Below the pieces are notes generated by a model. That model ran no database searches, had not been told where the DNA came from, and saw only the letters and a list, made by a program, of their open reading frames with translations. From Alphaproteobacteria bacterium (GTDB lineage: Bacteria; Pseudomonadota; Alphaproteobacteria; UBA2966), in NCBI GenBank assembly GCA_030740435.1, contig JASLXG010000135.1:1-38099 (forward strand): a DNA stretch of 38,099 nt. Reading direction: 5' to 3'. This document shows positions 19,443 through 27,917 of the stretch, in pieces (the stretch's first letter is position 1; each line of letters opens with the position of its first letter). The position numbers and the translations under genes were made by a program.

Positions 19443-21410
19443 ATGACCGACAGGGATCAATCCATCGCGCCCGCCGAGACCTTTGCCGCGCTGCTGCAGG
19501 AGCAAATCAAGCGCTGGCCCGACGCCGTGGCCTACCGGGAAAAGTATTGGGGCATCTGGCAGTCCCATACCTGGGCCGAGACCGCCGCCGGAATCCGGGC
19601 CATGGCGCTGGGATTTTCCGATGTTGGCCTCAAGCGCGGCGAGCACGTCGCCATCATCGGCGCCAACCGGCCCGAGCTCTATTGGTCGTTTACCGCCATC
19701 CAGGCCATGGGCGGCATACCCATCCCGCTATACCAGGACAGCATTGCCGAGGAGATGCAGTACGTCCTCGAGCACGCCGAAATCCGCATCGCTGTCTGCG
19801 AAAACCAGGAGCAGGTCGACAAAATCCTCTCGGTCATGGAGCGCTGCCCGAAAATCGAGATCGTGATCTACAAAGAACCCAAGGGCATGCGTCACTACGA
19901 CCAGCCCTTCATCTACGCCCTTCGCGAACTGATGGAGCGGGGCCGGGCGCTGGACGCTGCCAAGCCCGACCTCTACGACAGCCAAGTGGCGCTGGGCAAG
20001 AACGACGACGTTGCCCTGATCGCCTATACCTCGGGCACCACCGGCGACCCCAAGGGCGTGGTGCTGTCATTCCGGGCGCTGATGAAGGCGGCTCAGGAAT
20101 CGGTGGCACTCGAAGGGCTCAACGTCGAAGACGAGGTGCTGTCCTACCTGCCGCTGGCCTGGGTCGGCGATCATTTCTTCTCCGTCGCCCAGGCCTACCA
20201 CTCGGGTATGACCGTCAACTGCCCCGAAAGCAGCGACACCGTGATGCTCGACCTCAAGGAATTGGGACCGACCTATTTCTTCGCGCCCCCTGCCATCTGG
20301 GAGGGGTTTTTGACCCAGATCCGCATTCGCATGGAGGACTCGGGCCGCTTCAAGAAGTGGCTCTTTGACTACTTCATCGGGGTGGCCGGGCGCGTCGGCG
20401 TGCGCATCATGGAAGAGAAGCCGGTATCGGCGGGCGAGCGCTTCCTTTACTGGTTGGGCAGCCTCTCGATCTACGGGCCGCTGCGCAACAACCTGGGCCT
20501 CAGCCGGGTGCGCATTGCCTACACCGCCGGCGCGCCGCTGGGCGAAGAGGTCTTTGATTTCTACCGCAGCCTGGGCATCAACCTGAAACAGCTCTACGGC
20601 CAGACCGAATCCTGCGCCTATGTCACGCTCCAGCGTAACGGCGACGTCAAACACGACACGGTGGGGCCGCCGGCCCCGGGCTGCGAGGTCAAGATCGCCG
20701 AAAACGGCGAAATCCTTTTCCGCAGCCCCGGCACCTTCGACTGCTACTACAAGAACGAAGAGGCCACCATCGAGACCAAGGGCGAAAACGAAGGCGATTG
20801 GATCCATACCGGCGATGCCGGCATCATCGATGATTCCGGCCACCTCAAGGTCATCGACAGGGCCAAGGACGTCGGCACCATGAACGACGGCACGCTGTTT
20901 GCGCCCCAGTACCTGGAGAACAAGCTCAAGTTCCACCCCTTCATCAAGGAGGCGGTGACCTACGGCGACCAGCGCGACTTCGTCGGCGCCTTCATCAATA
21001 TCGACCTCGAGGCCACCGGCAACTGGGCCGAGCGCCAAGGCATCGCCTATACCAGCTACACCGATCTGGCCGACCGTGACGAGACCTACGAACTGATCAA
21101 GGGCTGTGTCGAGGACGTCAACGCCACCCTGGCCCGCGACAGCGCCCTGGTGGGCTCGCAAATCCGGCGCTTTCTTATCCTGCACAAGGAACTGGATGCC
21201 GACGACGGCGAAATCACCCGCACCGGCAAGGTGCGCCGGCGCATCATCGCCGAGCGTTTCGGCGATCTCATCGACGGCCTCTATTCCGATGCCGAACGCG
21301 TCGCCGTCGAGGCCAAGGTGACCTTCGAGGACGGCCGCGAGGGCGTCATCAAGGCCAACCTCAAGGTCCAGACCTCGAATACCTTTGATGCCATGAAGAA
21401 GGCCAGCTAA
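19443..21410 (+). CDS. AMP-forming long-chain-type acyl-CoA synthetase
   Basis: ANL-superfamily ligase of 655 residues that would adenylate a carboxylic acid and form its CoA thioester. The ATP-binding P-loop YTSGTTGDPKG is at about 194-204, YGQTES near 385, and TGDAG near 457. The C-terminal domain carries RTGKVRRR, which includes the catalytic Lys region. Length and the lid sequences resemble FadD15-like long-chain ligases, but proteins of this type next to Liv importers often act on other acids, so the substrate is left open. The ATG at 19443 has only a weak ribosome binding site. Its stop overlaps the livG start as TAATG, tying it to the transporter. Confidence 0.9.
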   Translation: MTDRDQSIAPAETFAALLQEQIKRWPDAVAYREKYWGIWQSHTWAETAAGIRAMALGFSDVGLKRGEHVAIIGANRPELYWSFTAIQAMGGIPIPLYQDSIAEEMQYVLEHAEIRIAVCENQEQVDKILSVMERCPKIEIVIYKEPKGMRHYDQPFIYALRELMERGRALDAAKPDLYDSQVALGKNDDVALIAYTSGTTGDPKGVVLSFRALMKAAQESVALEGLNVEDEVLSYLPLAWVGDHFFSVAQAYHSGMTVNCPESSDTVMLDLKELGPTYFFAPPAIWEGFLTQIRIRMEDSGRFKKWLFDYFIGVAGRVGVRIMEEKPVSAGERFLYWLGSLSIYGPLRNNLGLSRVRIAYTAGAPLGEEVFDFYRSLGINLKQLYGQTESCAYVTLQRNGDVKHDTVGPPAPGCEVKIAENGEILFRSPGTFDCYYKNEEATIETKGENEGDWIHTGDAGIIDDSGHLKVIDRAKDVGTMNDGTLFAPQYLENKLKFHPFIKEAVTYGDQRDFVGAFINIDLEATGNWAERQGIAYTSYTDLADRDETYELIKGCVEDVNATLARDSALVGSQIRRFLILHKELDADDGEITRTGKVRRRIIAERFGDLIDGLYSDAERVAVEAKVTFEDGREGVIKANLKVQTSNTFDAMKKAS

Positions 21411-22234
21411 TGAGCCAAGCCGCCGCCAGCACGGAAAGCGCCGGGTTCCCCGAGAGAACCTTCGGCGATGTCATGCTCAAGGTCGACAACGTCAGCGTCT
21501 CGTTCGGCGCCGTGCGTGCCCTGATCGAGGTCAGCTTCGACATCCGCGAGCGCGAAATCCTCGCCATCATCGGCCCCAACGGCGCCGGCAAGACGTCGAT
21601 GCTCAACTGCATCAACGGCTTCTACCACCCCAGCGACGGCACCATCACCTTCAAGGGCGAGGAGCGCCGGGACATGAAGCCGCACCTGGCCGCCGTCCAG
21701 GGCATCGCCCGGACCTTCCAGAACGTGGCGCTGTTTCACGGCATGACCACGCTCGACAATTTGATGACGGGCCGAAATCTCAAGATGAAGACCAACTTCC
21801 TGCTGCAGGCGCTGCATATCGGGCCGGCCCGCAAGGAAGAGCTCGAACACCGCGATTTCGTCGAGCACATCATCGAGTTCCTGGAGATCGAGGCCATCCG
21901 CAAGATCCCCGTCGGCCGCCTGCCCTACGGCATGCAAAAGCGCGTCGAGTTGGGACGCGCCCTGGCCGCCGAGCCTGATCTGTTGCTGCTCGACGAGCCC
22001 ATGGCCGGCATGAACATCGAGGAAAAAGAGGACATGTGCCGCTTCGTCCTCGACGTCAACGACGAATTCGGCACCACCATCGCCCTGATCGAGCACGACA
22101 TGGGGGTGGTGATGGACATCTCCGACCGCGTCGTGGTGCTCGACTATGGCCGCAAGATCGCCGAAGGCACGCCGGACGAGGTGCGCTCGAACAGCGCCGT
22201 CATCGAGGCCTATCTGGGAGTCAGCCATGACTGA
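21410..22234 (+). CDS. livG: Liv/HAAT-type ABC transporter ATP-binding protein (LivG-like)
   Basis: Cytoplasmic ATPase of a branched-chain amino acid-type (HAAT) ABC importer, 274 residues. Walker A is GPNGAGKTS at about residue 55, the signature is degenerate (LPYGMQKRVELGRAL), and Walker B is LLLLDEPMAGMN near 190. The C-terminus with VVVLDYGRKIAEGTPDEV is characteristic of LivG. An N-terminal stretch of about 20 residues precedes the fold. It is translationally coupled to the upstream CoA ligase (TAATG). With the neighbouring permeases, binding protein and livF it makes a complete importer; amino acids need not be the substrate. Confidence 0.94.
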   Translation: MSQAAASTESAGFPERTFGDVMLKVDNVSVSFGAVRALIEVSFDIREREILAIIGPNGAGKTSMLNCINGFYHPSDGTITFKGEERRDMKPHLAAVQGIARTFQNVALFHGMTTLDNLMTGRNLKMKTNFLLQALHIGPARKEELEHRDFVEHIIEFLEIEAIRKIPVGRLPYGMQKRVELGRALAAEPDLLLLDEPMAGMNIEEKEDMCRFVLDVNDEFGTTIALIEHDMGVVMDISDRVVVLDYGRKIAEGTPDEVRSNSAVIEAYLGVSHD

Positions 22235-22270
22235 AGGCGGGATCTCTGCTGACGGCGGGAGAGAGTGGTA

Positions 22271-23239
22271 ATGGAAGTTCTCAACGACAACATCCTCGCC
22301 CCCCTCATCGACATGGGGACCTACCCGGAGTTTTTCGCCGAGGTGGTGATCGGTGGTCTGATGACCGGCGTGATGTATTCGCTGGTGGCGCTGGGTTTCG
22401 TGCTCATCTTCAAGGCCTCGGGCGTCTTCAACTTCGCCCAGGGCGTGCTGGCGCTGTTCGCGGCGCTGACCCTGGTCGGCCTGATGACCGGCACCGTGCC
22501 GGTGTCGCTGGGCACCATGGGCTACACCATGTCGCCCTTCCTGGCGGTGCCGCTGACCTGTGTCGTCATGGTGGGCCTGGCCTATCTGATCGAACGTGTC
22601 GTGCTCAGGCCGCTGGTCAACCAGGAACCGATCATCCTCTTTATGAGCACCATTGGGCTCGCTTTCGTGCTCGAGGGCTTCGGCGACATCCTCTGGGGCA
22701 GCACCGTCAAGCCGCTGGACATCGGCATCCCGTCGGGCAATTTCGAATGGCAGGGCATCCAGTTCCAGGTCTTCGAGATCTGGGCCGCCGTGACGGCCGC
22801 CATCCTGGTCACGGTGCTGGCCATCTTCTTCCAGAAGACGCGCATCGGCCGCGCCTTGCGCGCCGTCGCCGACGACCATCAGGCGGCGCTGTCGGTGGGC
22901 GTGCCCTTGAAGAACATCTGGATCATCGTGTGGTCGGTATCGGGCGTGGTGGCGCTGGTCGCCGGCATCATGTGGGGCTCCAAAAGCGGCGTCCAGTTCT
23001 CGCTCTCGCTGATCGCGTTGAAGGCGCTGCCGGTGCTGATCCTGGGCGGCTTTACCTCGGTGCCGGGCGCCATCGTCGGCGGCCTCATCATCGGGGTCGG
23101 CGAAAAGGTTGCCGAGGTCTACTGGGGGCCGCTGATCGGCGGCGCCATCGAGAACTGGTTCGCCTACATGGTGGCGCTGGTGTTCCTGCTGTTCCGGCCC
23201 CAGGGCCTGTTCGGCGAAAAGATCATCGAAAGGGTGTGA
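22271..23239 (+). CDS. livH: Liv/HAAT-type ABC permease (LivH-like)
   Basis: Integral membrane permease of 322 residues with about eight hydrophobic segments. The block FKASGVFNFAQGVLALFAAL is the conserved LivH motif, and the C-terminal GAIVGGLIIGVGEKV region matches the family. The start is the ATG at 22271, preceded by GGGAGAGAG; a GTG two codons upstream is less well placed. It lies 36 bases after livG and 4 bases before livM. Confidence 0.94.
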   Translation: MEVLNDNILAPLIDMGTYPEFFAEVVIGGLMTGVMYSLVALGFVLIFKASGVFNFAQGVLALFAALTLVGLMTGTVPVSLGTMGYTMSPFLAVPLTCVVMVGLAYLIERVVLRPLVNQEPIILFMSTIGLAFVLEGFGDILWGSTVKPLDIGIPSGNFEWQGIQFQVFEIWAAVTAAILVTVLAIFFQKTRIGRALRAVADDHQAALSVGVPLKNIWIIVWSVSGVVALVAGIMWGSKSGVQFSLSLIALKALPVLILGGFTSVPGAIVGGLIIGVGEKVAEVYWGPLIGGAIENWFAYMVALVFLLFRPQGLFGEKIIERV

Positions 23240-23243
23240 CGTC

Positions 23244-24320
23244 ATGATTTACCGCGAGGCCGGCCAGATCAAGACGAGCTACGCCGCCGACCAGGCCATA
23301 TTCCCGATCACCCAGGATCGCTGGTTCATCGGCGCCATGCTGATCATCGCTTTCATCATGATCCCCCTGGTGGGCAACGAATACTTCTTCCAGGCCATCA
23401 TGATACCGGTGCTGATCTACTCGCTGGCCGCCATCGGCCTCAACATCCTGACCGGCTATTGCGGCCAGGTGTCGCTGGGCACGGGCGGCTTCATGGCGGT
23501 GGGAGCGGTGTCGTGTTACAAGCTGATGACCGGCTTCCCCGAGTTGAACCTGATCGTGGTGTTGCTGCTGTCGGGCTTTGTCACGGCCGCCGTCGGCATG
23601 ATTTTCGGCATCCCCAGCCTGCGCATCAAGGGCTTCTATCTGGCCGTCGCCACCCTGGCTGCCCAGTTCTTCCTCAGTTGGCTCTTCAACAAGGTGCCCT
23701 GGTTCGTCAACTATACGCCTTCCGGCACCATCACGGCACCGCCGCGCGAGGTGCTGGGCGTCATCATGACCGGTCCCTACGCCACCAGCCTGTCGCGCTA
23801 CTTTTTCTGCCTGATCGTCGTCTGCGTGTTCGCGCTGCTGGCCAAGAACATGGCGCGGGGCTCGGTGGGCCGGGCCTGGATGGCAATTCGTGACATGGAC
23901 ATAGCGGCCCAGTTGATCGGCTTCAGGCCCTTCCAGGTCAAGCTGCTGGCCTTCTCCATCAGCTCCTTCTACATCGGCGTCGCCGGGGCCATGATGTTCG
24001 CGCTCTGGCTGGGTGCCGTCGAGACCGCCGAGGCCTTCGACATCAACCTCTCGTTCCAGGTGCTGTTCATGGTCATCATCGGCGGCCTGGGCTCGATCGC
24101 CGGCTCCTTCATGGGCGCCGCCTTCATCGTACTGATGCCGATCCTGCTGACCAACGTCATGGTCGGCGGCATGGGCATGCAGGCGGTGACCGCCAAACAC
24201 ATCGAGATCATCATTTTCGGCTCGCTGATCATCCTGACGCTGATCATTGAGCCCAATGGCATGGCCAGGCTGTGGCAGATCGCCAAGGAAAAATTGCGGC
24301 TATGGCCCTTTCCACACTAA
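23244..24320 (+). CDS. livM: Liv/HAAT-type ABC permease (LivM-like)
   Basis: Second membrane permease of the importer, 358 residues. The conserved LivM segment GLNILTGYCGQVSLGTGGFM is present near residue 70, followed by about eight more hydrophobic spans and the FRPFQVKLLAFSISSFYIGV region. It has a hydrophilic N-terminal lead of about 28 residues before the first membrane segment. The ATG at 23244 is 4 bases after the livH stop. A 112-base gap separates it from the binding-protein gene, in which I saw no clear terminator or promoter. Confidence 0.94.
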   Translation: MIYREAGQIKTSYAADQAIFPITQDRWFIGAMLIIAFIMIPLVGNEYFFQAIMIPVLIYSLAAIGLNILTGYCGQVSLGTGGFMAVGAVSCYKLMTGFPELNLIVVLLLSGFVTAAVGMIFGIPSLRIKGFYLAVATLAAQFFLSWLFNKVPWFVNYTPSGTITAPPREVLGVIMTGPYATSLSRYFFCLIVVCVFALLAKNMARGSVGRAWMAIRDMDIAAQLIGFRPFQVKLLAFSISSFYIGVAGAMMFALWLGAVETAEAFDINLSFQVLFMVIIGGLGSIAGSFMGAAFIVLMPILLTNVMVGGMGMQAVTAKHIEIIIFGSLIILTLIIEPNGMARLWQIAKEKLRLWPFPH

Positions 24321-24432
24321 GAATCATGGTTCGCCCTGTCGGAGCGGATTGTGCGACCCGCCGAATATTGTTTAATGTTGGCGCAGTCGAAAGAAACTAT
24401 CCGATGAACTGGAAGCAAGCTGGGAGATGGGT

Positions 24433-25746
24433 ATGAAATACAGCAGATTTTCACTAGGGCTGGCTGCCGCCGTCGCTTTGACGGTGGTGGGAACAGCCGA
24501 GGTCGCGATCGCGGAGGACACCATATTCCTGCCGGGACTGACCTACCGCACCGGGCCTTACGCGCCGAACGGCATCCCCTTCGGTAACGGGTTCCGGGAT
24601 TACATCACACTGATCAACGAACGCGACGGCGGCGTCGGTGGCGTCAAGCTGGTCTACGAGGAATGCGAGACCGGCTACAACACCAAGGTTGGTGTCGAGT
24701 GCTACGAGAAGCTGAAGAGCAAGAACCCGGTGGTGGTCATCCCCAATTCGACGGGCATCACCTACCAGCTCATTCCCAAGGCGCCGGTCGACAAGATTCC
24801 GGTGTTGACCATCGGCTACGGCCGCACCACGGCGGCTGACGGCCGGGTCTTCCCCTGGGTCTTCAACTTCCCGACAACCTACTGGAGCCAGGCCAGCGCG
24901 GTCATCAACTACATCGGATCGCAAGAAGGCGGACTGGGTAACCTCAAGGGCAAGAAGATCGCCCACATCTACCACAACAGCGCCTACGGCAAGGAAGCCA
25001 ACCCCACCCTCGATGTGTTGGCCAAGAAGTTTGGCTTTAAGCTGACCAAGCTTGCCGTCGACCATCCCGGTCAGGAGCAGAAGGCGACCTGGCTGCAGAT
25101 CCGGCGCCTCAAGCCGGACTACATCTTCATGTCCGGCTGGGGCGTGATGAACCAGGTGGCGGTCAAGGAAGCCGCCGCCATCGGCTACCCCATGGATCAC
25201 TTCATCGGCAATTGGTGGTCGGGCACGGAAAGCGACGTCATGCCGGCCGCCATGGGAGCCAACGGCTACAAGGCAGCCACTTGGCATCCGCCGGGCCGCG
25301 ATTTCGATCTGCATCGCGACATCCTCAAGTACGTCTATGACAAGGGTAAGGGTGCCGGCGAGCGCGACCGCGTCGGCGAGGTGCTGTACACCCGCGGTGT
25401 CTTCAACTTCATCATCGTGGTCGAGGCCATCCGCGACGCCCAGAAGAAATTCGGCGTCAAGGTGGTCAACGGCGAACAGGTCCGCTGGGCCCTGGAAAAC
25501 ATGAGCATCGACCAGGCGCGGTGGAAGAAGATCGGTCTCTCGGGCTACAACGACATCAACGTCACCTGTGCCGATCACGAAGGCTCGGGCCCGGTGCTGA
25601 TCCAGCAGTGGAACGCCAAAACCAAGACCTGGAAGCTGGTCAGCGGTTGGAACAAGGTGATGCGTGACGTGGTGCGGCCGATGATCGAGTCGGGCGCCGC
25701 CGCCTACGCCAAGGAAAACAACATCACACCGCGTAGCTGCAGCTAG
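24433..25746 (+). CDS. livK: Periplasmic substrate-binding protein of the Liv-type importer
   Basis: Type I periplasmic binding protein of 437 residues, longer than amino acid LivK proteins (about 370). It starts with a signal peptide (about 1-28, cleavage after AIA). The mature start EDTIFLPGLTYRTGPYAPNG and the ligand-domain block GVKLVYEECETGYN are typical of HAAT binding proteins linked to CoA-ligase genes. Of two ATGs, 24433 is chosen because GGGAG lies six bases upstream, whereas it abuts the ATG at 24427. The symbol marks the family only: the ligand is unknown and, given the ligases on both sides of the importer, is likely an organic or aromatic acid. Confidence 0.85.
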   Translation: MKYSRFSLGLAAAVALTVVGTAEVAIAEDTIFLPGLTYRTGPYAPNGIPFGNGFRDYITLINERDGGVGGVKLVYEECETGYNTKVGVECYEKLKSKNPVVVIPNSTGITYQLIPKAPVDKIPVLTIGYGRTTAADGRVFPWVFNFPTTYWSQASAVINYIGSQEGGLGNLKGKKIAHIYHNSAYGKEANPTLDVLAKKFGFKLTKLAVDHPGQEQKATWLQIRRLKPDYIFMSGWGVMNQVAVKEAAAIGYPMDHFIGNWWSGTESDVMPAAMGANGYKAATWHPPGRDFDLHRDILKYVYDKGKGAGERDRVGEVLYTRGVFNFIIVVEAIRDAQKKFGVKVVNGEQVRWALENMSIDQARWKKIGLSGYNDINVTCADHEGSGPVLIQQWNAKTKTWKLVSGWNKVMRDVVRPMIESGAAAYAKENNITPRSCS

Positions 25747-25802: not shown

Positions 25803-26627
25803 GTGGATAAAGCCGTGAACGATACGCAGACCCTTCTCGAAGTGAGCAACATCGAGGTCATCTACAATCATGTGATCCTGGTGTTGCGCGGCGTATCGCT
25901 CGAGGTCCCCAAGGGGAGCATCGTCGCTCTCCTTGGGGCCAACGGCGCCGGCAAGACAACTACGCTCAAGGCGATTTCCAACCTCCTTCATGCCGAACGC
26001 GGCGAGGTCACCAAGGGCGCCATCCTCTATCAGCAGGAACCGGTGCAGGCCCGCAGCCCAAGCGAATTGGTCAAAAAGGGCGTCATCCAGGTGATGGAGG
26101 GACGCCACTGCTTCGAGCATCTGACCGTCGAGGAAAACCTGCTTACCGGGGCCTACACCCGCAGCGGCGGCCGGGCCGTGGTGAACGAAAGTTTGGATTT
26201 GGTTTACAGCTATTTTCCCCGCCTCAAGGAGCGCTCGAGCGCCCTGGCCGGCTATATCTCCGGCGGCGAGCAGCAGATGACGGCGATCGGCCGCGCCTTG
26301 ATGGCCGAGCCCAATCTGATCCTGCTCGACGAGCCCTCGATGGGTCTGGCGCCGCAGTTGGTCGAGGAAATTTTCGAAATCGTCGATCGATTGAACAAGC
26401 AGGAAGGCGTCAGCTTCCTGCTGGCTGAGCAGAACGCCACCATGGCGCTACGTTACGCCGATTACGGCTATATTCTCGAGACCGGCCGCGTCGTGCTCGA
26501 TGGCGAGGGCGCCAAGCTGGCCGAGAACGAGGACATCAAGGAATTCTACCTGGGCCTCAGCGCCTCGGGACGCAAAAGCTATCGCGACGTGAAACACTAT
26601 CGGCGGCGCAAGCGCTGGCTGGCCTAA
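25803..26627 (+). CDS. livF: Liv/HAAT-type ABC transporter ATP-binding protein (LivF-like)
   Basis: Second ATPase of the importer, 274 residues. Walker A is GANGAGKTT at about 45, the signature is ISGGEQQMTAIGRAL near 153, and Walker B is LILLDEPSMGLAPQ near 171. The C-terminus has an extra basic tail (about 255-274, ending YRRRKRWLA) beyond the usual LivF end. The start is a GTG at 25803; the next GTG at 25815 is also possible and no strong ribosome binding site decides between them. It follows the binding protein by 56 bases. Confidence 0.92.
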   Translation: MDKAVNDTQTLLEVSNIEVIYNHVILVLRGVSLEVPKGSIVALLGANGAGKTTTLKAISNLLHAERGEVTKGAILYQQEPVQARSPSELVKKGVIQVMEGRHCFEHLTVEENLLTGAYTRSGGRAVVNESLDLVYSYFPRLKERSSALAGYISGGEQQMTAIGRALMAEPNLILLDEPSMGLAPQLVEEIFEIVDRLNKQEGVSFLLAEQNATMALRYADYGYILETGRVVLDGEGAKLAENEDIKEFYLGLSASGRKSYRDVKHYRRRKRWLA

Positions 26628-26672: not shown

Positions 26673-27917
26673 ATGGCCAATGACGAACATTACGACGACC
26701 TGGAAATCCGCGATCCCGCGATGCGCGAGGCCGACAACCTCAAGCACCTGCAAAGCCAGGTCGCCCACGCCAAGCAGAACTCGGCCTACTTCGGCAAGGT
26801 CTTCGCCGACTTCGAGGCCGCCGACATCACGGACCGGGCGGCGCTGGCCAAGCTGCCGGTGACACGCAAGCACGACCTGATCGAGACCCAGCCCCTGGAT
26901 CCGCCCTTCGGCGGCCTCAATGCCTGGCCCATGGAGAAGCTCTGGCATATCTTCCAGTCGCCCGGCCCGATCTACGAATGCGACGCCGACGTCAAGGACT
27001 ACTGGCGCTTCGCCCGCGGCATGTGGGCCGCCGGCTTCCGCGCCGGCATGATCGTCCACAACACCTTCTCCTACCACATGACGCCGGCCGGCAGCCTCAT
27101 CGAATCGGGGGCCCGGGCCATCGGTTGCCCGGTCTTCCCCGGCGGCGTCGGCAACACCGAGATGCAGGTCGAGGCCATGAGCCGCCTCAAGCCGGCGGCC
27201 TATGCCGGCACGCCCTCGTTTCTCAACATCATCCTCGACAAGGCCGACGAGATGGGCGTCGAGCCCAGCTACTCCGTCGCCACGGTGGGCGGCGAGCCGC
27301 TGCCCGCCAGCGTGCGCACCAAGATCGAGGACCGCGGAATTACCTGCTTGCAGGGCTACGGCACCGCCGAGTTGGGCCAGGTGTCCTACGAATCCAAGGC
27401 CAAGGACGGCATGATCATCGACGAAGGCGTGCTGGTCGAGCTGGTCGAGCCCGGCACCGGCAACCCGGTGGCCGAAGGTGAGGTCGGCGAGGTCGTGGTC
27501 ACCCACCTGGTCAACCAGGCCTATCCCCTGATCCGCTTCGCCACCGGTGATCTTTCCGCCTTCATGGACAGCCCAAGCCCCTGCGGCCGCAGCAACACCC
27601 GTATCCGGGGCTGGATGGGCCGGGCCGACCAGACCACCAAGGTGCGCGGCATGTTCGTGCATCCGCCCCAGGTCGGCCAGGCGGTGGGCCGCCACCCCGA
27701 AATCAAGAAGGCGCGCTTGGTCATCGACCAGGCGGACGGCCGCGATTCCATGGTACTGAAATGCGAAGTCGCAGGCGGCGGCTCGGACGACCTGGCCACG
27801 GCCATCGCCGCTTCCATCCAGACCTGTTGCAAGCTCAGGGGCGAGGTCGAATTCGTCGAGCCCGGCAGCCTGCCCGAGGACGGCAAGGTGATCGACGACA
27901 TCCGTACCTTCGATTAG
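26673..27917 (+). CDS. PaaK-like (phenylacetate-CoA ligase family) AMP-forming ligase with altered P-loop
   Basis: ANL-superfamily protein of 414 residues resembling phenylacetate-CoA ligases. Conserved later motifs are present: the YGTAELG block (A5), RFATGDLSAF (A7), GRADQTTKVRG (A8) and a C-terminal GKVIDD with the expected Lys. However, the phosphate-binding loop, normally SSGTTG, is replaced by FQSPGPIYE (94-102). The same motif is familiar from PaaK-like proteins beside Liv importers (recalled, not searched), so it may be a subfamily trait rather than damage. Substrate and even ligase activity are uncertain. The ATG at 26673 has a purine-rich GAAGGGGG upstream. The stop lies 6 bases before ccmA. 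Confidence 0.82.
   Translation: MANDEHYDDLEIRDPAMREADNLKHLQSQVAHAKQNSAYFGKVFADFEAADITDRAALAKLPVTRKHDLIETQPLDPPFGGLNAWPMEKLWHIFQSPGPIYECDADVKDYWRFARGMWAAGFRAGMIVHNTFSYHMTPAGSLIESGARAIGCPVFPGGVGNTEMQVEAMSRLKPAAYAGTPSFLNIILDKADEMGVEPSYSVATVGGEPLPASVRTKIEDRGITCLQGYGTAELGQVSYESKAKDGMIIDEGVLVELVEPGTGNPVAEGEVGEVVVTHLVNQAYPLIRFATGDLSAFMDSPSPCGRSNTRIRGWMGRADQTTKVRGMFVHPPQVGQAVGRHPEIKKARLVIDQADGRDSMVLKCEVAGGGSDDLATAIAASIQTCCKLRGEVEFVEPGSLPEDGKVIDDIRTFD

Follow-up and report, generated by a model that had tools for sequence, protein, structure and literature searches.

A PaaK-fold protein family without the canonical phosphate-binding loop is linked to Liv importer and acyl-CoA synthetase genes

The window, that is, the whole stretch of DNA analyzed here (38,099 nucleotides, contig JASLXG010000135.1 of the alphaproteobacterial assembly GCA_030740435.1), encodes an acyl-CoA synthetase (ACSL), the components of a Liv-type importer and, at the end of the series, a 414-residue protein that we denote PaaKx. 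The genes follow each other on the plus strand in the order ACSL, LivG, LivH, LivM, LivK, LivF, PaaKx:

19443..21410, +, ACSL, acyl-CoA synthetase with an intact YTSGTTGDPKG motif (ORF translation; Pfam AMP-binding, 234.4 bits)
21410..22234, +, LivG-like ATPase (Pfam ABC_tran, BCA_ABC_TP_C)
22265..23239, +, LivH-like permease (Pfam BPD_transp_2)
23244..24320, +, LivM-like permease (Pfam BPD_transp_2)
24427..25746, +, LivK-like periplasmic binding protein (Pfam Peripla_BP_6; closest solved structure PDB 4ru0_A, E 7.3e-125)
25803..26627, +, LivF-like ATPase, separated from PaaKx by 45 bases (Pfam ABC_tran; closest NCBIfam model LivF, below cut-off)
26673..27917, +, PaaKx, PaaK-fold protein without P-loop, 414 aa (ORF with ATG start; AlphaFold2 mean pLDDT 93.0; PaaK structures are the top structural matches)

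Downstream of PaaKx lies an ABC ATPase gene that, judging by its neighbors, we take to be ccmA. The genome contains a second ACSL-Liv set on contig C134 (L154), in the order LivG-ACSL-LivH-LivM-LivK that is characteristic of the type II operons described below, with a 51% identical ACSL; this contig ends just past LivK. Despite this second set, the search of the window's genome yielded only one PaaKx.

PaaKx is a PaaK-fold member of the ANL superfamily. Two Pfam domains score above their cut-offs, AMP-binding (PF00501; 46.7 bits against 29.9) and AMP-binding_C_2 (PF14535; 27.2 bits against 25), and the structural model retrieves PaaK and the 2-hydroxyisobutyryl-CoA ligase HCL as top matches. 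The AMP-binding match does not include the P-loop position, as it begins at residue 162. Within the first 81 members of the family, PF00501 matches all 81 proteins (E up to 0.001) and PF14535 matches 64. No NCBIfam model is passed by PaaKx: the best ones are PaaK models, at 169.5 and 163.1 bits against cut-offs of 700 and 646.3, the latter being TIGR02155 (phenylacetate-CoA ligase PaaK), for which another protein of the same genome scores 714.1 bits.

The family set consists of 121 PaaKx proteins, namely, that of the window, those of 80 loci (the best 80 of 577 candidates), and 40 from genomes identified by searching 299 Pseudomonadota genomes with a profile of those 81 proteins; the 42 matches in these genomes include the window's own genome, and G231 was left out of the sequence set, so that 40 were added. 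Because the set combines the best 80 of 577 candidates with a profile built on the first 81 proteins, a distant relative that carries a P-loop could be missed. All 121 sequences are mutually different. Azospirillum brasilense and Dechloromonas denitrificans are among the species in which relatives were detected. Relatives with the same motif are 43-60% identical, and 66 alignment columns are invariant across the first 81 sequences. The following motifs of the window protein were compared across the family:

26958..26978, +, SPGPIYE (residues 96-102), occupying the position of the A3 P-loop SSGTTG; the corresponding stretch in paralog L089 is ASSGTTGNPT
27354..27377, +, motif A5 (residues 228-235, GYGTAELG), acid at 233: D in 113/121, E in 8/121
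27522..27551, +, motif A7 (residues 284-293, YPLIRFATGD), R288 and D293 in 121/121
27609..27659, +, motif A8/hinge (residues 313-329, GWMGRADQTTKVRGMFV), R317, D319, Q320 and K323 in 121/121
27879..27899, +, A10 region (residues 403-409, DGKVIDD), position 405 K in 102/121 and L/I/V/M/R in 19

The translated ORF reads FQSPGPIYE at residues 94-102, exactly as in the original prediction, where canonical PaaK has SSGTTG. In the alignment with seven PaaK-like paralogs from the same genome, SPGPIYE lies over SSGTTGN/K, and about three residues are missing from PaaKx immediately after it. All seven paralogs possess a P-loop, SSGTTG in two, TSGTTG in three, and SGGTTG or SGGATG in the others, and none of their genomic stretches (0/7) shows a Liv or ACSL match. 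The SGGATG variant belongs to L096, on contig C3. Part of this 688-residue open frame is PaaK-like, and the alignment shows no A8 resembling GRSDD; L096 is a second odd ANL protein of this genome. In the proposed check of motif conservation across the family, S96, P97 and G98 did not vary in any of the first 81 proteins or of the 40 others (121/121 altogether), and P99 is kept in 117/121. Given this invariance among sequences that all differ, the SPG loop is not a one-off mutation. An SSGTTG-like motif is absent from the first 81 proteins (pattern SSG[TS][TS]G) as well as from the other 40 (pattern S[SG]G[TS]TG), and a P-loop at another place in PaaKx was rejected on these grounds. An equivalent of SSGTTG elsewhere in the fold, which had been named in advance as counterevidence, was thus not found by motif search, and the model has a tight turn at residues 97-99.

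The AlphaFold2 model, built from the 81-row alignment, has a mean pLDDT of 93.0 and a pTM of 0.89. At the P-loop site, strands 90-96 and 100-105 are linked by a tight three-residue turn (97-99). Among solved structures, PaaK-type ligases come closest, and the top Foldseek and VIA-align matches are PaaK, the PaaK-like protein BT_0428 and HCL. The full-length rmsd to known structures amounts to 10-13 A because the lid is placed differently; the N domain alone superimposes on 2y4o_A with Z 36.8 and an rmsd of 2.7 A over 315 residues.

Proline lacks an amide hydrogen, and the PaaKx loop contains two prolines. As reviewed for PaaK1, the side chains of Ser94, Thr96 and Thr97, along with the loop's main-chain amides, bind the ATP phosphates (PMC8388817); according to the alignment, these three residues probably correspond to Pro97, Pro99 and Ile100 of PaaKx. 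The P-loop is listed among the core motifs of phenylacetate ligases (PMC13186573), and in other ANL enzymes, mutation of its conserved residues is reported to severely reduce activity (PMC6122825). PaaKx could nevertheless be a working CoA ligase with a rebuilt loop, in which SPGPIYE and the nearby backbone would hold ATP differently and an unusual acid imported by Liv would be the substrate. Such an enzyme would fit the strong purifying selection on SPG and the substrate expected for a PaaK, given that the operon imports one. We nevertheless consider it unlikely in view of the two prolines, the replacement of the phosphate-binding serine and both threonines, and the ACSL already present in the operon, which in the window retains an intact YTSGTTGDPKG.

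The remaining ANL motifs present a different picture. A5 (YGTAELG), A7 (YPLIRFATGD) and A8 (GWMGRADQTTKVRG) are recognized in the alignment with the seven paralogs, as had been suggested, so that the nucleotide and hinge motifs of PaaK are retained, A8 reading GRADQ in PaaKx versus GRSDD in PaaK. Across the 121 proteins, the A5 tyrosine is kept in 113 (F in the other 8) and the A5 aspartate likewise in 113 (E in 8), and in the pocket region H135 and P138 are invariant (121/121). The terminal lysine is a more complex case: it is present in the window protein, within DGKVIDD (K405), and aligns with that of the paralogs, as predicted, but it varies across the family (K in 102/121), unlike its invariant neighbors D403, G404 and D409 (121/121). 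Lysine is missing in 19/121 proteins, and at least 14 switches between lysine and other residues are required on the family tree. In the same review, the A10 lysine is described as the key catalytic residue for adenylation (PMC8388817). The pattern of motifs thus implies that residues serving the AMP half have been retained, whereas those for phosphate binding and adenylation are lost or relaxed. The proposal of a subfamily with altered nucleotide handling is supported by this combination of the SPG loop in all 121 proteins, A10 lysine loss in 19/121 and retained AMP-side motifs. The preserved fold, A5, A7 and A8, together with the lysine in 102/121 proteins, are also what a ligase with a rebuilt loop would display; the repeated loss of this lysine in 19/121 argues against it.

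PaaKx might instead perform only the second half-reaction, using acyl-AMP from ACSL to acylate CoA or a different acceptor. The full conservation of A7 and A8 is compatible with this activity, and so is loss of the A10 lysine, which acts in adenylation and hence would be dispensable; the constant pairing with ACSL documented below points in the same direction. ACSLs normally carry out both half-reactions within a single protein, and release of the labile acyl-AMP would be costly, so we find this scenario quite improbable. Finally, loss of two catalytic motifs could signify a relic, a decaying PaaK carried passively in the operon. We strongly disfavor this explanation, which would have to accommodate 66 invariant columns in 81 sequences, the same motif at 43-60% identity, and retention of exactly one copy in each of the PaaKx-encoding genomes (42/299 at E 1e-80).

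PaaKx genes typically are located at the end of ACSL-LivGHMKF operons or of a diverged LivG-ACSL-HM(K)F form. A same-strand LivF lies upstream in 73/80 loci of the first set and 36/40 of the second, and the LivF and PaaKx BLAST matches lie no more than 500 bases apart in 65 of the 73 and 26 of the 36. Where at least 7.5 kb of upstream sequence is available, ACSL and LivG, H, M and F are all present in 52/55 and 32/37 loci. Thus, PaaKx is encoded together with LivGHMKF and ACSL, that is, with a Liv-type import and activation system. The full ACSL-LivGHMF complement is missing at L009, L014 and L065 in the first set and, in the second set, at L123 (ACSL just outside the analyzed stretch), L139 (module on the opposite strand), L109 and L125 (module elsewhere on the same contig) and L112 (an ACSL ~30 kb away). 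No LivF match was found at L001, L009, L015, L030, L048, L065 and L078 in the first set (L015 and L030 start within ~800 bases) or at L109, L112, L125 and L139 in the second. In L001 (6307-7629), from a Sneathiella MAG, PaaKx is enclosed by aconitase-like and ccmA-like genes, which also border the window's operon, and here neither Liv nor ACSL lies between them; the 6.4 kb upstream of PaaKx in this ccm neighborhood contains no Liv match. No PaaKx-LivF fusion was detected in either set; long frames upstream of PaaKx that resemble fusions were rejected as readings in other frames.

The operons fall into two types, divided at 50% LivH identity: type I (at least 50% identity to the window's LivH) includes 77 loci and type II 18, the others being unsure or lacking Liv. 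The type II LivH proteins show 32-38% identity to the window's LivH, and this group is not uniform, with the ACSLs of L002 and L139 standing at 43-45%. In a quick IQ-TREE phylogeny of 128 rows (121 PaaKx and the seven paralogs; the program warned of long paralog branches), all 121 PaaKx proteins are separated from the paralogs by a branch with an SH-aLRT of 100. Within PaaKx, the operon types are mixed, type II requiring 10 changes, at least seven of them forced by starred branches. We take this to mean that PaaKx stayed constant while its transport/ligase module was exchanged repeatedly, or vice versa. The type II ACSLs have a peculiarity of their own: 16/18 do not match the normal P-loop pattern, and most contain TSGTT[S/A]xPK instead of YTSGTTGxPKG, with the final P-loop glycine replaced by serine or alanine. 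This variant was read in 11 type II ACSLs (L027, L050, L066, L070, L072, L115, L116, L117, L120, L127 and L144) and also in L140, the LivH of which is type I.

The linkage extends to the level of whole genomes. In the sample of 299 Pseudomonadota genomes, with thresholds that we set at E 1e-80 for PaaKx and E 1e-95 for a window-like ACSL, PaaKx is present in 42 genomes, in exactly one copy each, and the ACSL in 45, including all 42 with PaaKx (Fisher p 4e-48, ignoring the kinship of the genomes). Among the remaining 257 genomes, a similar ACSL was detected in three, G070, G138 and G174, all of one genus, at 411-426 bits compared to at least 452 in PaaKx genomes, with the exception of G235 (a partial match, 400 bits, 58% identity). 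One of the three, G070, encodes a LivG-H-M-K-F-ACSL operon with ACSL in the last position and no PaaKx (L155, contig C15); hence, PaaKx is not required by every ACSL-Liv operon. Dependence on canonical PaaK was considered and rejected: TIGR02155 (E 1e-180) is found in 51/299 genomes, 29 of them shared with PaaKx, leaving 13 with PaaKx alone and 22 with canonical PaaK alone. The operon position and the co-occurrence with ACSL in 42/42 genomes lend support to the predicted association of PaaKx with the Liv importer.

The fixed SPG loop and the attachment to one kind of operon suggest a helper or sensor role rather than a normal ligase. On balance, judging from motif conservation and the model, we consider it somewhat probable that PaaKx is a pseudo-ligase, unable to adenylate, whose ligand is an acyl-adenylate, AMP or a CoA ester and which serves Liv/ACSL uptake and activation; the non-ligase acyl-binding protein that had been put forward as one option is consistent with the data and is the reading we prefer. 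This interpretation builds on the replaced phosphate-binding side chains, the loop shortened by about three residues with a tight turn in the model, and the repeated loss of the A10 lysine (19/121) alongside invariant AMP-side residues in A7 and A8. The service to Liv/ACSL is suggested by the P-loop-bearing paralogs that lack Liv, the operon linkage, the 42/42 co-occurrence with ACSL, and the pairing with two diverged Liv/ACSL versions mixed on the tree. PaaKx would then retain the two-domain PaaK fold, the A8 hinge and the part of the pocket that accommodates the AMP half, but it would lack the usual hold on the ATP beta and gamma phosphates and would not make acyl-adenylates. Liv would take up a carboxylic acid that ACSL would activate; in the cytoplasm, PaaKx would bind one of acyl-adenylate, acyl-CoA and AMP, and would then either keep the product for the next step or signal the load to the importer or ACSL. 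That PaaKx does not adenylate, what it binds and whether it touches LivF or ACSL are all inferred here.

Several observations counter the pseudo-ligase interpretation. The retention of K405 in 102/121 proteins sits oddly with loss of adenylation at the root of the family, and the backbone around S96-G98 could provide some phosphate contacts. A role with Liv/ACSL is further called into question by the ACSL without PaaKx in three genomes, the L154 set, and L001, where PaaKx occurs without Liv.

Hints at the imported ligand are weak and point to methyl-branched acids. After the operon on an Azospirillum brasilense plasmid (L158, 8989-19221), there are genes for acyl-CoA dehydrogenase, thiolase, carboxylase and hydratase, and the genes beside it include carboxyl transferase, enoyl-CoA hydratase and biotin-carboxylase types. 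This set resembles terpene or leucine pathways and may indicate which acid is imported. A class III CoA-transferase-like gene, below every NCBIfam cut-off, follows the operon in 14/124 sources, within 400 bases in 10 of 11 measurable cases. Among the neighbors of PaaKx loci in the 124 sources, none is widespread apart from the Liv/ACSL module; several large neighbor clusters were set aside by eye because they look like antisense readings.

Among characterized proteins, the closest are PaaK1 and PaaK2 of Burkholderia cenocepacia (PDB 2y27, 2y4n, 2y4o), which have the fold and the A5, A7 and A8 positions in common with PaaKx, and BT_0428; the full-length alignment yields E 1.2e-39 for 4r1l_A (BT_0428) and E 3.3e-38 for 2y4o_A. 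PaaKx differs from all three in the absence of SSGTTG, in the GRADQ form of A8 instead of GRSDD, and in the Liv/ACSL operon. HCL (PDB 6hdw-6he2), matched in structures with acyl-AMP or acyl-AMP and CoA bound, belongs to the same structural family (Z 37.1-37.3) but is an active ligase with only 25-26% identity to PaaKx. More remote (Z 19.5-20.1) is the divergent ANL N-domain of a phenazine antibiotic biosynthesis protein (PDB 3hgu, 3hgv, 3l2k), presumably EhpF, an atypical relative of adenylating enzymes; with its chain of ~350 residues, it belongs to another pathway and is far less similar. In eukaryotes, the FLD2 domain of DIP2 is a degenerate ANL domain beside an active one, and loss of adenylation has been proposed in the DIP2 report (PMC9342972); FLD2 is degenerate in A5 and A7, both of which PaaKx keeps, and is FAAL-like and tandem-fused, without an operon link, unlike PaaKx. 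Thus, degenerate ANL domains have precedents in DIP2 FLD2 and EhpF. No description of the PaaKx family was found in the open-licence literature, by title or abstract.

In PLSDB, the PaaKx family is labeled only 'AMP-binding protein' in 14/20 plasmid records among the matches listed. Given this label and the lack of an NCBIfam model that PaaKx passes, metabolic reconstructions may credit genomes with a phenylacetate-type ligase that may be absent. If the pseudo-ligase interpretation is correct, PaaKx would offer a simple, testable system for the coupling of carboxylic acid uptake to CoA activation, and a natural ANL protein without a P-loop in which to ask which half-reaction survives. A bolder possibility, which we regard as doubtful, is that these unnamed, widespread PaaK pseudo-ligases are a dedicated cytoplasmic subunit of Liv importers that senses the acyl-AMP or acyl-CoA of ACSL and gates or couples import. 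If so, an ABC importer would be tied to vectorial acylation by a dead superfamily copy of the activating enzyme.
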